IMG/VR virus record: IMGVR_UViG_3300022591_000074
Location: 1-22,789 of that record
Length of the DNA: 22,789 nt
Reading direction: 5' to 3' (one strand)
Source of the DNA: a virus
Part shown: positions 17,619 to 22,789 of the stretch, piece after piece
How positions within the stretch are numbered: position 1 is the first letter of the stretch
How the letters are laid out: the number at the start of each line of letters is the position of its first letter
The notes under the pieces: generated by a model
Told to the model about the DNA's origin: nothing
Seen by the model: the letters and a program-made list of their open reading frames with translations, nothing else
The model's database searches: none
Position numbers and translations under genes: made by a program

Positions 17619-19646
17619 ATGGCCGTTTACAAACGTGCTGGAGTTTATATCAATGAACTCTCAAGTTATACCGCACCTGTTGCGGATGTCGGCAGTGCTA
17701 ACGCTGCTGGTGCCGTAGTTGCTGCGTTCCCGCAAGGCCCAAGTTCTGTAACTAAAGTCAGTTCATGGTACGACTTCAAGAAACTGTTTGGTGACTTGAA
17801 TACTGCTTACCCATCGACTTACTCAGTGAACCAGTTCTTTAACAATGGAGGTACTGACCTTTACGTTCGCCGTATTCTCCACACCACTGACACGGTTGGT
17901 TCAAACAACGCAACTGCGGCAAGAGTTGGTGTAAACAACCTACTTACTAGCGCTACCAATATGTTCTATTGGACTGCAAAGAACTTAGGTAAAGACGGTA
18001 ACCAACTTAAAGTAGTTCTATCAAAATCAGCAACTATTGGTTGGAATGCTAACTATAAACCAGACGGTACTAACTCAGCCCAGTACACAGGTGCTTATGA
18101 CGTCGCTATTTACCGTACCCTTAATGGTATAGATACTTTGCTTGAGCAATTCTTTGGTCTATTCTTTAGTACTCAGATTGCTGGTGAAGATATTAAACTA
18201 TCTCCAGACTATGCTCCAACTGTTTTGAACTATGGTTCAAACTTTGTAAGCATTACTGGTTTGGATTTTAATATCCAACTAAATACTGTTTCAGGCGCTG
18301 CTACTAACGTTTACGAACCTGTCCTTGCAACCTCTACCCTTGTTAATGGTTCTGGAACTACCCCATATTCTTATTCAGATTGGATTGGCGGAACCTCAAC
18401 AGGAACCACGGCTCTTACCTCAATTGCTTGGGTTTCTGCAACAAGCGCAACAGTTACTTACTCTAACGCCACTCAGTTGGCAACCTTGGGCCAAGTCCTT
18501 ACCCTTGCAGGAGTTACGGGTACCAACAATACCTATAACCAAACTGTAGTTGTAACTGCTATTGGTGGTTCTGCAACTCCATTTAACTTTACAATTACTC
18601 CAACAACTACTGCGTTCGTTAACGTCGCTGGTTCTGGAGGTACGGCAACAGGCTTAGCAAACACATGGGATTTTGGTACAAGCGGAACATATGACAGTAC
18701 TAAAAACAGCATTATTAGTGAGTTTTCGAGTGTAAATCAGCCGTTGGTGTTCTTCTTCCCTGACTTGATTGCTCGTGCTGGAGCAAACAGTGCTTGGGAT
18801 ACTAACGTTGCAAACGTTTACAACAAGTACATCACCTTTGCTGAAAAGGGTACGGGTGCTCAACAAGGTGTCACTATCAAGCACTTTGTTGTTGTGGAGA
18901 CTGGCTACACTACGGCCAACTCGGGTAACAGTTCGTCAGCGGCAAAGGTTAACGCTTTGACTGCTGCAACTAATGTTACTGCTAGTGCTCAGGCTGCTGT
19001 GTACTTCCCATCAATCTACATTCGTGATGCTGCAGGTAATTCAGGTTCGTCAATCCGTTTGATGGGCCCTTCTGGAGCAGTGGCTGGTTTGTACCTCAAC
19101 ACTGACCGTACAATCGGCCCATGGAAGAGCCCTGCTGGTCTAACTATGAAGATTGTGGATGCAGTTGCTCTTGAGCACTCGTTCACTAACGATGAACTAG
19201 ATGACCTAAACCAAGGTAACCTAAGCAGCAATGCTTACTATCCAGTCAACGCTATTCGTAGCCTTCCTGGTGCAGGCATCGTTGTCATGGGTGCTCGCAC
19301 TACCAAGCAAGATGGAACTGCTAACCGCTATGTGGCTATGCGCCGTTCGCTTACCTACATCGAGAAGAACCTAAACGACCTATCGTTGTTTGCGTTGTTC
19401 GAGAGCAATGATGAAATTCTGTGGTCACGTCTCAAGACAGTTCTTGGTAACTTCTTGAACAACTACCGTAACCAAGGTGGTCTACGTGGTGAAAAGGCAG
19501 ACGATGCCTTCTTCATCAAGTGTGATACAGACAACAACACTCCAGCAACCATCGCTGCTGGAGAGGTCCACATCGAAGTTGGTGTTGCTCTTGAGTACCC
19601 AGCCGAGTTTATCGTTATCAACCTCAGTCAAAAGACTGCAATTTAA
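17619..19646 (+). CDS. Contractile tail sheath protein
   Basis: A 675-residue protein. Sheath subunits surround the tail tube and contract to drive it through the host envelope. The N-terminus (YKRAGVYINELSSYTAPVAD, then a GAVVAAFPQGP segment and FFNNGGTDLYVRRI) and the C-terminal domain (KADDAFFIKCDTDNNTPATI followed by EVHIEVGVALEYPAEFIVI) are typical of sheath proteins. Residues of about 259-342 look like an inserted beta module (SATSATVTYSNATQLATLGQ and onward) related to modules in this phage's fibre proteins, and would be exposed on the sheath surface. AAGGAG lies 8 nt before the ATG. The tube gene follows after 19 nt. The family call is firm; the insertion is my reading. Confidence 0.93.
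   Translation: MAVYKRAGVYINELSSYTAPVADVGSANAAGAVVAAFPQGPSSVTKVSSWYDFKKLFGDLNTAYPSTYSVNQFFNNGGTDLYVRRILHTTDTVGSNNATAARVGVNNLLTSATNMFYWTAKNLGKDGNQLKVVLSKSATIGWNANYKPDGTNSAQYTGAYDVAIYRTLNGIDTLLEQFFGLFFSTQIAGEDIKLSPDYAPTVLNYGSNFVSITGLDFNIQLNTVSGAATNVYEPVLATSTLVNGSGTTPYSYSDWIGGTSTGTTALTSIAWVSATSATVTYSNATQLATLGQVLTLAGVTGTNNTYNQTVVVTAIGGSATPFNFTITPTTTAFVNVAGSGGTATGLANTWDFGTSGTYDSTKNSIISEFSSVNQPLVFFFPDLIARAGANSAWDTNVANVYNKYITFAEKGTGAQQGVTIKHFVVVETGYTTANSGNSSSAAKVNALTAATNVTASAQAAVYFPSIYIRDAAGNSGSSIRLMGPSGAVAGLYLNTDRTIGPWKSPAGLTMKIVDAVALEHSFTNDELDDLNQGNLSSNAYYPVNAIRSLPGAGIVVMGARTTKQDGTANRYVAMRRSLTYIEKNLNDLSLFALFESNDEILWSRLKTVLGNFLNNYRNQGGLRGEKADDAFFIKCDTDNNTPATIAAGEVHIEVGVALEYPAEFIVINLSQKTAI
18393..18644 (+). 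repeat. Beta module inserted in the sheath
   Basis: Residues 259-342 contain GQVLTLAGVTGTNNTYNQTV, then a VVTAIGG segment and a Phe-rich strand (FNFTITPTTTAFV). The order resembles modules in the fibre proteins, where G-x-x-I-x-I/V-x-G is followed by a Tyr-Asn-Gly-like turn and V-V-x-x-V. The flanks are Thr/Gly-rich linkers, consistent with an insertion into a sheath surface domain. Confidence 0.55.
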
Positions 19647-19665: not shown

Positions 19666-20292
19666 ATGGCTACTATCATCAACAACCGTTCTCAACTTGA
19701 GACCGACCCAATCAGAAACTTTAGGTTCCTGGTTACGTTCCAACCGCAGCAAACCACTAACAGCCCTTTGATGAAGACTTCAAAGGTTGCTATTGGCTTC
19801 ACCTCGGTATCGGGTCTGTCAGTAACTACTGACAGCATCCCTTACCGTGAAGGCGGTTACAACACCACTGTTCACCAGATTCCAGGTCAGACCTCGTTCT
19901 CTCCTGTTACTCTACAGCGTGGTGTTATCCTCGGTACCTCACAGCACTGGGACTGGATGCGTAAACTATTCGCAACCGTTCAGGCTAACGGTACTACCGC
20001 TGCTGGTCAGAATGAGAACTTCCGTTGCGACCTTGAGATTGCTGTGCTATCGCACCCAATCCCAGGTTCAGGTGGAACCACCGAACTAACTGGTGCTAAC
20101 AACAACGGTACGTCAACCGACCACGTTGCTATGCGATTCAAGGTCTACAACGCATGGATTACCTCCATTGCTTACTCGGACCTAAACGCTGGTGACAATG
20201 CTATTCTTGTGGAGCAGATGACTTTGGTCCACGAAGGCTTTGACGTCAACTGGGCTCCAGACCTAACCACAAAGGCAGCCGCCTTTAAATAA
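19666..20292 (+). CDS. Tail tube protein
   Basis: A 208-residue protein that should stack as rings to form the inner tail tube. It matches the T4 gp19-like tube family in layout: PIRNFRFLVTFQPQQ near the start, a SVSGLSVTTDSIPYREGGYN segment in the characteristic place, then VTLQRGVILGTSQHWDWMRK, and a C-terminal strand region with VEQMTLVHEGFDVNW. Length is slightly above the simplest tubes because of a Gly/Asn/Thr-rich loop near residues 128-148 (PGSGGTTELTGANNNGTS). AAGGA at 19651-19655 lies 10 nt before the ATG, slightly long. Direct placement after the sheath supports the call. Confidence 0.9.
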   Translation: MATIINNRSQLETDPIRNFRFLVTFQPQQTTNSPLMKTSKVAIGFTSVSGLSVTTDSIPYREGGYNTTVHQIPGQTSFSPVTLQRGVILGTSQHWDWMRKLFATVQANGTTAAGQNENFRCDLEIAVLSHPIPGSGGTTELTGANNNGTSTDHVAMRFKVYNAWITSIAYSDLNAGDNAILVEQMTLVHEGFDVNWAPDLTTKAAAFK

Positions 20293-20314
20293 TCTCCACT
20301 AAAGGACAACTAAC

Positions 20315-21127
20315 ATGGCAGAACAAACATTCAACGCAGCAACTAACCCAACTTTGGCTAATGACCTTATTGGTAAAGCAACTGCAGACCAGAACACCAC
20401 TCCTGTAAAAGCAGAAATCAACCCACCTTCGGATACCTTGGTGACCCTCCCTGCTGGATATGTAACTCCAGACGGGGAGGTCATCAAGACCGCCGAAGTT
20501 CGAGAACTCAACGGTAAAGACGAAGAGTTCTTGAGCAAAGTAACGACAGTCGGAAAAGCATTGAACACAGTGCTTAACCGAGCAGTAGTCAGTATTGGCA
20601 GCACTCCTGTTACTGAAAAGATTCTGGACTCGCTTCTTGCAGGTGACCGTGATACCTTGCTTCTCGGTATCTACCGTGCCACCTTTGGAAATACAGCCGA
20701 ACTTGGAGCCCTATGTCGTGGCTGCAATGACATCAAAGTAGTAGGCATTGATGTTAATGAAGATATTAAGACCAAGGTTCTTGTAGACCCTGCTGACCGT
20801 ACGTTCACCGTACAGGGCAAGAAGGGCGAGTTCCTAGTTACACTTCCTACTGGAGCAACACAGCGTGAGTTAACCTCTAATCCTGATAGGACTATGGCAG
20901 AACTTCAGACAGTTATTCTGGAGCACTGCATCATGGAGATTAACGGAGCGCCTGTAGTAAGCAAGCAACAGGTTCTAACCCTGGGCCTTGTAGACCGTCG
21001 CACGCTTCTTGAAGAAATTACATCTCGCAATCCTGGCCCACTATTTGAAAACATTACGGTCACCTGTCCTGACTGTGAGGGAGAGGTAGAAGTTCCGATT
21101 AGTCTCGGGGCTTTGTTTCGATTCTAG
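20315..21127 (+). CDS. Tail assembly chaperone, T4 gp26-like zinc-site protein
   Basis: A 270-residue protein. Residues 41-75 (DTLVTLPAGYVTPDGEVIKT, then VRELNGKDEE) and 107-125 (LLAGDRDTLLLGIYRATFG) follow the pattern of T4 gp26-like baseplate or chaperone proteins. Cysteines 134/137 (CRGC) and 251/254 (CPDC) form two C-x-x-C pairs that could bind zinc. In contractile-tail phages this family lies between tube and tape measure, as here, and helps tape-measure folding and tail assembly. AAAGGA at 20301-20306 lies 8 nt before the ATG. The protein ends SLGALFRF, immediately before a +1-frame sequence that looks like its usual partner, so the stop may be bypassed by frameshifting. Confidence 0.75.
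   Translation: MAEQTFNAATNPTLANDLIGKATADQNTTPVKAEINPPSDTLVTLPAGYVTPDGEVIKTAEVRELNGKDEEFLSKVTTVGKALNTVLNRAVVSIGSTPVTEKILDSLLAGDRDTLLLGIYRATFGNTAELGALCRGCNDIKVVGIDVNEDIKTKVLVDPADRTFTVQGKKGEFLVTLPTGATQRELTSNPDRTMAELQTVILEHCIMEINGAPVVSKQQVLTLGLVDRRTLLEEITSRNPGPLFENITVTCPDCEGEVEVPISLGALFRF
21116..21122 (+). promoter_or_regulatory. Candidate +1 frameshift site
   Basis: The zero-frame codons TTT CGA TTC are followed by the stop TAG at 21125. A Phe-tRNA on TTT can re-pair with TTC after a +1 slip, leaving CGA unread, and would then read GAT TCT AGT CGC into the downstream frame. GGGG-C at 21107-21111 is an alternative site for a -2 slip. The mechanism is inferred from codons only. Confidence 0.4.
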
Positions 21128-21149
21128 TCGCCTAGATTACGAAGCGCTA

Positions 21150-21281
21150 ATGAGCCAATGGGCAACATTGGCAGTGGCATTTAGTGGTTGGTCTTTGGAG
21201 GATATCCAAAGATTAAGCATGAGAGAACGCAAGAACTGGCTAGAAATAGGCAGAGAACTTGGCAGAGTTGTAAGGAAGTAA
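21150..21281 (+). CDS. Downstream tail chaperone frame (DUF6760-like segment)
   Basis: From ATG 21150 this encodes 43 residues starting MSQWATLAVAFSGWSLEDIQ and ending in a helix with LSMRERKNWLEIGREL. The frame is open from 21090, and from 21129 reads RLDYEALMSQW without a break. The pattern L/Y-x-x-L-x-W followed by a W-S-x-x-D-I-x-x-L-x-x-R-E-R-x-x-W-L helix resembles the short partner found next to gp26-like proteins in phages and contractile injection systems. The ATG has no clear ribosome site and would remove the RLDYEAL start, which favours production as a frameshifted extension of the upstream protein. Its end is 1 nt before the tape-measure ATG. Coding is likely; mode of translation is open. 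Confidence 0.6.
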   Translation: MSQWATLAVAFSGWSLEDIQRLSMRERKNWLEIGRELGRVVRK

Positions 21282-21282
21282 G

Positions 21283-22789
21283 ATGGCTAATATAGTCTCC
21301 AACCTCATGGGCGGTATGTCCATGGAAAAGTTGACGACCGCCTTTGAAGGTGCTGCCAAAGCCAGCAAACAGATTTCAGACAATCTCCAAAAAGCCACTA
21401 AACTTGCTGGCGACCTAGGCAAGGGTATGAAAGCGGCGGCTGGCTCGGCCATTAAAACTGGTGGCCAGAACATGCTTGGCACTGGTCAAACAGGAAACGT
21501 TCTTTCTAATTCCCTAGGTGCCTTTACAAATAACACCAGTTCTGCTGGTCAGCAGTCCATGATGAACGCCTTTGGTCCTAACGGTTCTCTTACTGACTTT
21601 GCTGGAAGCAGTTCTGTCAGGGAGGCTGGCAGTGCCTTCAATATGCTTACCAACGTTGTCGCTGGTACCCAACAGTTCTTGCCTGATATGGGTAAAACCA
21701 TGGCTCGTGCCACTGGGTATTACAACGCCACTACTTTCTCTGGTAACCGCTTCCCTAGAGCAACAAGCAACTTCCAAGGGGCATTAAACAACATGGGCAT
21801 GCGAATGCCTAGCGTTGAAGACATGACCTTTAAAACTTTGTCTGATAGCGGAGGTATGACCTCTGTTGGTTCTGACGCTATTGTCGCCCAGTACTTAACA
21901 GGCAAGGGCATGAATGTTGCTGGTGGAGCAAACAGCACGTACCAACAAACTTTGCGTACTATCGGTAACGCTGGCAAATACCTGAACATCAGCAACGAAG
22001 CCGCTGCGGCTTCTGTGGAGGGCTTGACTGGTGCCGCTGGTTCGTCAAACATGCTCCGTAAGTTTGGTATCTATACTGCAGACTTGCAAACTGGTAAGGA
22101 AAAAACTCAAGGACAAATCTTTGAGGAGTTGGCAAACAGACTTACTGCTGGACGTAAGCCAAGTACCATCGAACAGACTCAAAACGATATCCGTCGTGGC
22201 TTCCTTGGCGTAAATATCCAAGCCGCATTCGGTAATGACCAAGCAGGCGCTGAGATGTTCAAGCAGTACATGGTTGAACGTGCTGGTGGCAGCAAAATGG
22301 ATTTGTCTAGCAATGAGGCTATGAACAAAATCTATGGTGGTCTAGGTACTGACGGTGCTCTCCAGGGCTATCCTGCTGGTAACACCAACCCAATGAACGC
22401 TCTGCACACACTAAACGCCAGTGATACTTCTGGCCTCGATATGGCAGAACAAAAATACCTTTCTGGTATGAACGCTGCTGTTCCTATACTCGAACTTCTA
22501 AACACAGCCGCAGGTAATGCTGCGGATTCTTTGGCAGGATTTAACACAGCCTTTGCTTCTACTTTAGGTAAGAGTGACACCGTAAAAGGTTTGACTAAGG
22601 CAGCAGGTGCTGTTGCTGGGTGGGCTGGGTCTAACGCCCTACAACTAGGTGTCGCTGCTGCACAATACATGGTTGGAGATGTGGCAGGTGCAGTGAAAAC
22701 TGGTGCTCCTGCTGCACTTAAGTTGGCTGCAGGTACTGCTGGATTGGGTGGATTGAATACGTCAGGTTTAGTCAGTAGTGCCGCATCGG
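21283..22789 (+). CDS. Tape-measure protein, N-terminal part (partial)
   Basis: The frame is open from ATG 21283 to the right edge: 502 residues with no stop. AAGGA at 21272-21276 lies 6 nt before the ATG. It starts MANIVSNLMGGMSMEKLTTA and is rich in Ala, Gly, Asn and Met, with helical stretches such as FEGAAKASKQISDNLQKATK, and an Ala-rich hydrophobic region near residues 440-490. That region could insert in a membrane or line the tail. Its place right after the chaperone pair is the standard position for the tape measure, which sets tail length and is ejected at infection. Residues of about 245-350 (YLNISNEAAAASVEGLTGAA and beyond) do not match a domain I can name. An enzyme domain further on cannot be excluded. 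Confidence 0.75.
   Translation, partial: MANIVSNLMGGMSMEKLTTAFEGAAKASKQISDNLQKATKLAGDLGKGMKAAAGSAIKTGGQNMLGTGQTGNVLSNSLGAFTNNTSSAGQQSMMNAFGPNGSLTDFAGSSSVREAGSAFNMLTNVVAGTQQFLPDMGKTMARATGYYNATTFSGNRFPRATSNFQGALNNMGMRMPSVEDMTFKTLSDSGGMTSVGSDAIVAQYLTGKGMNVAGGANSTYQQTLRTIGNAGKYLNISNEAAAASVEGLTGAAGSSNMLRKFGIYTADLQTGKEKTQGQIFEELANRLTAGRKPSTIEQTQNDIRRGFLGVNIQAAFGNDQAGAEMFKQYMVERAGGSKMDLSSNEAMNKIYGGLGTDGALQGYPAGNTNPMNALHTLNASDTSGLDMAEQKYLSGMNAAVPILELLNTAAGNAADSLAGFNTAFASTLGKSDTVKGLTKAAGAVAGWAGSNALQLGVAAAQYMVGDVAGAVKTGAPAALKLAAGTAGLGGLNTSGLVSSAAS

Follow-up and report, generated by a model that had tools for sequence, protein, structure and literature searches.

A tail assembly chaperone gene in a fragment of viral DNA very likely yields two proteins through a +1 programmed ribosomal frameshift at UUU_C, and we infer, within the same explanation, that a hairpin and a Shine–Dalgarno (SD)-like GAGGU upstream of the site stimulate the slip. 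The window, meaning the whole stretch of DNA analyzed, comprises positions 1 to 22,789 of IMG/VR record IMGVR_UViG_3300022591_000074, is viral, and is given as one strand, 5′ to 3′. Most ribosomes would stop at 21125–21127 and release a short form of 270 amino acids. A minority, with tRNA-Phe on the P-site UUU (21116–21118), would slip forward by one base onto UUC and read to 21281, producing a long form of 321 amino acids with a 53-residue C-terminal extension. By analogy to G/GT of phage lambda, the tape measure protein would be coated by numerous short chaperones and a small number of long ones, and tail tube subunits would be recruited through the extension. The following features of the window are relevant.

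17619–19646: tail sheath gene (PF17482; PHROG tail sheath)
19666–20292, plus strand: tail tube protein gene (PF06841, Phage_T4_gp19; E = 2.9e-28)
20315–21127, plus strand: 0-frame tail assembly chaperone gene, T4 gp26-like, encoding the short form of 270 amino acids
21083–21087, plus strand: SD-like GAGGU, candidate frameshift stimulator, recognized by the conservation of codon −11
21092–21111, plus strand: hairpin 5′ of the slip site, with arms at 21092–21098 and 21105–21111 and a loop at 21099–21104
21116–21119, plus strand: predicted +1 slip site UUU_C (P-site UUU to UUC), with TTT in 127 of 127 aligned loci and C as the fourth base in 128 of 128
21120–21281, plus strand: +1-frame extension of 53 codons plus stop, which with the slip would give the long form of 321 amino acids
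21283–22789, plus strand: putative tape measure gene, assigned by position and length, running off the end of the window

The reading frames described in the earlier note on this DNA are accurate in all positions: the 0-frame gene ends at a TAG (21125–21127), the +1 frame is open from 21090 to 21281, and TTTC is located at 21116–21119, where it is the only in-frame TTTC word of the chaperone gene. The tail genes of the window are ordered sheath, tube, chaperone, extension, and tape measure. Flanked by the tube and tape measure genes, the 270-residue gene encodes a tail assembly chaperone of the T4 gp26-like type. Its product passes the cut-off of PF12322 (T4_baseplate, the T4 gp26 family; 29.9 vs. 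24.5 bits, E = 5.5e-7) and also matches phrog_150 (baseplate hub). AlphaFold2 models were made of the short form and of a T4-type gp51. For the short-form model (pLDDT of 86), the matches in BFVD include T4-like baseplate hub assembly proteins (E = 9e-21) and the gp26-like protein of phage SP-15 (E = 4e-12); its top match in the PDB, the HK97 tail assembly chaperone 2OB9, is not significant (E = 0.39).

The putative tape measure gene has no family match of its own in Pfam or PHROG, and one base separates its ATG (21283) from the stop codon of the extension. Its syntenic counterpart is the annotated tape measure gene in phages SP-15, LIS04, and immuto. The location of the chaperone gene, between the tube and putative tape measure genes, is that expected of a G/GT-type gene, and the order is the same in isolate phages with an annotated tape measure. 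In Streptomyces phage BRock, the gene in the tape-measure position is labeled as an endolysin. A search by similarity within this 22.8 kb fragment found no second copy of the chaperone, as in the split genes of T4, and the extension is present only in the +1 frame.

Relatives were gathered from IMG/VR with the chaperone protein (the best 80 of 125 matches taken), with an alignment (the best 80 of at least 549), and with the protein of Streptomyces phage BRock (16 matches). Full-length relatives with 38–41% identity are also present in the isolated Streptomyces phages BRock, LuckySocke, Alone3, GiJojo, and pSt2308, and one bacterial assembly, of a Saccharothrix sp., has a relative. After removal of copies, 128 distinct loci that reach the end of the gene remained among the matches listed. 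A FastTree tree of 99 sequences with less than 90% nucleotide identity has a total length of 30 substitutions per site. The related group includes more than 500 IMG/VR loci and the host, where known, is actinobacterial.

Across the 128 distinct homologous loci, a TTT-C is located near the end of the 0 frame without exception, and in every case the +1 frame beyond this UUU and pyrimidine is open. On the tree of 99 sequences, the TTT codon of the slip site has zero third-base changes, compared to 5–35 (mean of 21) in 21 other conserved two-fold columns and 13 and 19 in two other conserved Phe columns. Elsewhere in the gene, Phe codons of the aligned loci are a mixture of 516 TTT and 237 TTC, compared to exclusively TTT at the slip site. 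Streptomyces phages BRock, LuckySocke, GiJojo, and pSt2308 (∼40% identity) have the identical TTT_C site despite favoring TTC over TTT among Phe codons (58:23, 63:16, and 67:8). The preceding codon varies (TTG, TTA, CTG, CTA, TTC, or CTT), as does the A-site codon, which is CGN at 93 loci, CAR at 34, and CTA at one distant locus. Because the flanking codons are variable on both sides, TTT-C itself is the conserved unit.

UUU-Ynn has been reported as prone to +1 shifting in bacteria. The earlier note had placed the slip at TTT-C next to CGA and had proposed aligning homologues across the junction. The alignment bears out TTT-C, but not CGA as its neighbor, where any CGN or CAR can serve and only the C is invariant. 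Rarity of CGA, which accounts for 14 of 225 Arg codons in the genes of the window, was considered as a determinant and rejected because relatives mostly have CGC or CAG. The 0-frame stop codon is three codons from TTT-C at 108 loci and four codons at 18, and in the distant locus, from an uncultured phage of 484 kb (L086), TTT-CTA is six codons from the stop. In one freshwater locus (L050), the 0-frame stop has mutated from TAA to TAT while TTT-C and the +1 frame are both retained, suggesting that a stop beside the slip site may be unnecessary.

Upstream of the slip site are an SD-like element and a covarying hairpin that the earlier note had missed. Codon −11 is GAG, AAG, or CAG in 97 of 99 sequences and has a single third-base change on the tree versus a mean of 21 in other two-fold columns, thereby keeping an SD-like GAGGU or AAGGU. 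Codon −6 is also constrained, with ATT in 73 of 75 instances of Ile and two third-base changes on the tree. Internal initiation at this AUU was rejected because the codon is in frame 0 and because the hairpin with its loop partly accounts for the conserved base. In the region from −30 to +15, local folding energy has a mean codon-shuffle z-score of −2.09, relative to a background of approximately −0.5 over the neighboring 3.6 kb. The hairpin was unexpected and sought only after this signal, which it explains.

The key base pair of the hairpin, −19/−10, is formed by the third bases of a Pro and a Leu codon, both largely synonymous. It is paired in 78 of 85 freshwater sequences (GC 31, TA 31, AT 6, CG 6, and GT 3), compared to a mean of 35.8 and a maximum of 50 in 1000 shuffles. 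It is also the pair with the strongest mutual information in the region, and its two positions have changed jointly 17 times on the tree. In an independent count of the whole stem across 62 distinct rows, 38 cells were changed on both sides versus 17.2 in shuffles (0 of 500 as high), and controls in which the stem was slid reached at most 14. In most Streptomyces-type phages, a GC-rich hairpin is at the same place with its register shifted by one base; across 14 loci of this type, the register of the fold varies and the hairpin fails to form in two. Covariation strongly supports the hairpin only in the freshwater group.

The simplest reading of the element is that it stimulates the slip. Two routes are conceivable, namely an SD contact close to the P site or a hairpin that re-forms behind the ribosome and favors forward movement. 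In linear sequence, GAGGU is 28 nt from UUU, which is outside the usual spacing of a stimulator unless the hairpin folds in the exit region of the ribosome; with the 20-nt hairpin folded, the spacing is 4 + 4 = 8 nt. We tentatively suggest, with slightly less than even confidence, that this is a new kind of +1 cassette, in which an SD held 28 nt upstream would be brought to ∼8 nt from UUU_C by the re-forming hairpin, making it a counterpart in elongation to the split ribosome binding sites of T4.

The same arrangement raises the possibility that the SD and hairpin are themselves a split ribosome binding site serving a start codon further downstream, unrelated to frameshifting. In T4 genes 38 and 25, an intervening hairpin reduces the spacing between SD and AUG from 22 to 5 nt and from 27 to 11 nt, respectively (PMC3014915). 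The split site of gene 25 is at the 26–25 junction, in the end of gene 26 (PMC3014915). Gene 26 is homologous to the present gene. Effective spacings of 5–11 nt would land at approximately −3 to +3 of the slip site. However, no +1-frame start is located at that distance, where the codon is UUU and no start is conserved, and the nearest candidate is codon −1, a frame-0 codon that is TTG in just 51 of 99 sequences and from which a peptide of 4 residues would result. We therefore consider a split ribosome binding site unlikely. In T4, the SD and hairpin of gene 25 (approximately 2803–2860 of L091, minus strand) are at different codons than the present element, and common descent of the two is therefore not established.

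Other signals of RNA structure were also considered. Downstream of the slip site, the signal is weak (z-score of −1.5 vs. −0.2) with no RNAalifold consensus, and we do not claim a structure there. Positions 20200–21400 have no match in Rfam. A second, long covarying hairpin is located inside the chaperone gene at 20439–20487 (approximately codons 42–58) and is absent from a second group of gp26-like genes, that of Flavobacterium phage immuto. Its 60-nt folding energy of −34.6 is the lowest in the window, its mean codon-shuffle z-score in homologues is −4.89, and 76 cells are changed on both sides versus 30.2 in shuffles (0 of 500). It likewise lacks a match in Rfam.

Read in the +1 frame, the extension shows purifying selection. 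The +1 frame is open for 44–91 codons in 128 of 128 loci; the other two frames of the extension have on average 4.6 and 5.3 stops and are never open. The motif Y..L..EW..L....GWTL.EIK.LT.RER.NWL is conserved and the median dN/dS is 0.42, versus 0.26 for the main gene. In 33 of 99 loci, an upstream +1-frame stop causes the +1 frame to open just four codons before the slip point. As the 0-frame stop follows within three to four codons, the shift in these loci is confined to ∼17–20 nt that always contain UUU_C.

That the extension is instead a separate small gene, with its own start or expressed by termination–reinitiation, is very improbable. It is annotated as a separate hypothetical gene in the records of BRock, LuckySocke, and GiJojo (and is missing from that of pSt2308), and the window has an ATG at 21150, though one with no recognizable ribosome site, as the earlier note had remarked. 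Yet in no fewer than 18 of 99 loci, the stretch from the point where the +1 frame opens to the GW[ST]L core motif lacks any ATG, GTG, or TTG, excluding a separate gene in those loci, and one locus (L021) has none in the +1 frame downstream of the slip. Across loci, candidate starts are not conserved in position and an SD-like tetramer precedes one in only 16 of 99. The TTG start annotated in BRock removes the conserved Y..L segment, and a separate gene leaves the invariance of TTT_C unexplained. The earlier note named homologues with the two frames as separate genes with good ribosome sites as grounds against frameshifting; some Streptomyces phages are annotated with a separate gene, but across the 99 loci starts are missing in at least 18 and SD-like tetramers are scarce. 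The annotation of the extension is hereby corrected for BRock, LuckySocke, GiJojo, and pSt2308.

The direction of the shift is constrained by the window itself. A −1 shift can be dismissed, since reading in the −1 frame would end just 8 nt beyond the first base of the 0-frame stop codon, and no X_XXY_YYZ slippery heptamer is present in 21090–21127. A −2 shift leads to the same frame as +1, and the chaperone of phage Mu is reportedly made by a −2 shift. From TTG_TTT_C, however, a −2 shift would place tRNA-Phe on UGU with no pairing, whereas +1 places it on UUC with full pairing; its anticodon, GAA, pairs better with UUC than with UUU. In addition, only the base after TTT is invariant, while the codon before it varies. 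Since only TTT-C allows complete re-pairing of the P-site tRNA-Phe, +1 is preferred and a −2 shift is scarcely credible. RNA polymerase slippage or an assembly error, for which no supporting evidence was found, has a negligible probability, as the three T of most loci (TTG TTT C) are too short for slippage and the recurrence of the frame change in more than 100 independent contigs and in isolate genomes refutes an error. Invariance of TTT-C, loci in which no separate gene is possible (at least 18 of 99), gene order, and membership in PF12322 all support the programmed +1 frameshift that the earlier note had put forward.

Tail chaperone frameshifts are generally assumed to be −1, and the earlier note had regarded +1 as less usual in a gp26-type gene. 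Within this family of chaperones, +1 is not uncommon. The second gp26-like group, consisting of immuto and at least 599 IMG/VR relatives, has the junction TTT-YTN-T(G)G with an open +1 frame, and TTT-Y is present in 48 of 48 nonredundant loci. This group has only a weak counterpart of the hairpin, implying that +1 shifting does not in general depend on the hairpin. In the immuto-like loci (L199–L278), the bases after the slip (TGG CCT GAC) are almost invariant, with CCT in 48 of 48; both overlapping frames constrain these bases, and they are possibly a further signal. Extensions in the +1 frame at TTT-Y are also present in Bacillus phage SP-15, Listeria phage LIS04, and Streptococcus phage GXN1 (one genome each).

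Conversely, in the jumbo phages Agrobacterium phage Atu_ph07, Pseudomonas phage PA5oct, and Stenotrophomonas phage RAS14 (one genome each), the extension is in the −1 frame at T-TTT-TTC/T. The −1 extensions of these phages (L194, L196, and L197) are unannotated. The profile of the present long form aligns over its whole length to gp26-like long forms of other phages (P = 1.5e-12 and 8.7e-16), and profiles of fused long forms align nearly full length among groups (P = 3e-6 to 4e-26); extensions alone align weakly among groups. Long forms are thus homologous whether their sites are +1 or −1, suggesting that the same gene shifts forward or backward, depending on lineage, at the same Phe-rich point.

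In G/GT of lambda and E/E+E′ of P2, tail chaperones are produced by −1 shifts on slippery heptamers. The present gene is like these in its location before the tape measure, its short and long forms, and a shift near its 3′ end, and differs in the use of +1 on UUU_C, in encoding a gp26-like chaperone, and in having an upstream hairpin and SD-like element. In influenza PA-X, +1 shifting occurs at UUU_CGN, and the same has been proposed for amalgaviruses. These have in common with the present site the +1 direction and a minimal UUU_C followed by CGN, but involve eukaryotic ribosomes and unrelated viruses, whereas here CAR also serves and an upstream RNA element is present. In bacterial prfB, the +1 shift is at CUU_UGA, with a stop codon in the A site and an SD 3 nt away. 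Both systems re-pair in the +1 direction on a Y/U site and have an SD-like sequence upstream; unlike prfB, the A-site codon here is CGN or CAR rather than a stop and GAGGU ends 28 nt upstream, setting the site apart from the prfB type.

Among tailed viruses, Halorubrum tailed virus HSTV-2, an archaeal myovirus, is described as having a chaperone frameshift that is very likely +1 (PMC5009743). Compared by description only, HSTV-2 and the present virus have a +1 shift in a chaperone in common, and the host of HSTV-2 is archaeal. Vandenendeviridae phage Adele produces chaperone isoforms by a −1 shift at GTTTTT (PMC12846349); by description only, its site is likewise T-rich and near the 3′ end, and differs in direction.

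T4 encodes its two forms differently. T4 gp26 and gp51 are paralogues (P = 8e-25). The end of gp26 coincides with that of the 0-frame form and gp51 continues for ∼45 more residues, such that gp26 resembles the short form and gp51 the short form plus extension. T4 has two genes and no frameshift, whereas no separate gene for the long form was found within the present window. The C-terminus of gp51 aligns weakly to the present extension (P = 2.7e-4). The production of two chaperones from two genes in T4-like phages is attributed to Vladimirov, Gautam and Davidson (Virology 2022) where cited in PMC10885494, and gp51 as the counterpart of the long form agrees with published work and is no new claim. 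In RB43-type phages (L293, 3001–4294; L295, 3001–4295), the gp51 gene is directly followed by the gp26-like gene and then, in RCIP0002, by gp25, a tandem order unlike that of T4, in which gp51 and gp26 are on opposite strands.

Chaperone frameshifting, one predicted archaeal +1 case, and the two-gene solution of T4 were already known; the UUU-C site with its SD–hairpin cassette seems new. No earlier report of a UUU_C chaperone site or of the upstream element was found in the literature searched, which is weak evidence given that the Vladimirov 2022 and HSTV-2 papers are outside it. A large group of phages, with more than 500 loci in IMG/VR, is predicted to use +1 shifting at a bare UUU_C. Across the family, the direction of the shift appears to have changed in evolution while the two-product outcome was kept. 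The hairpin and SD-like element provide a concrete and testable model for how +1 shifting may be stimulated in bacteria without an A-site stop or a single rare codon.
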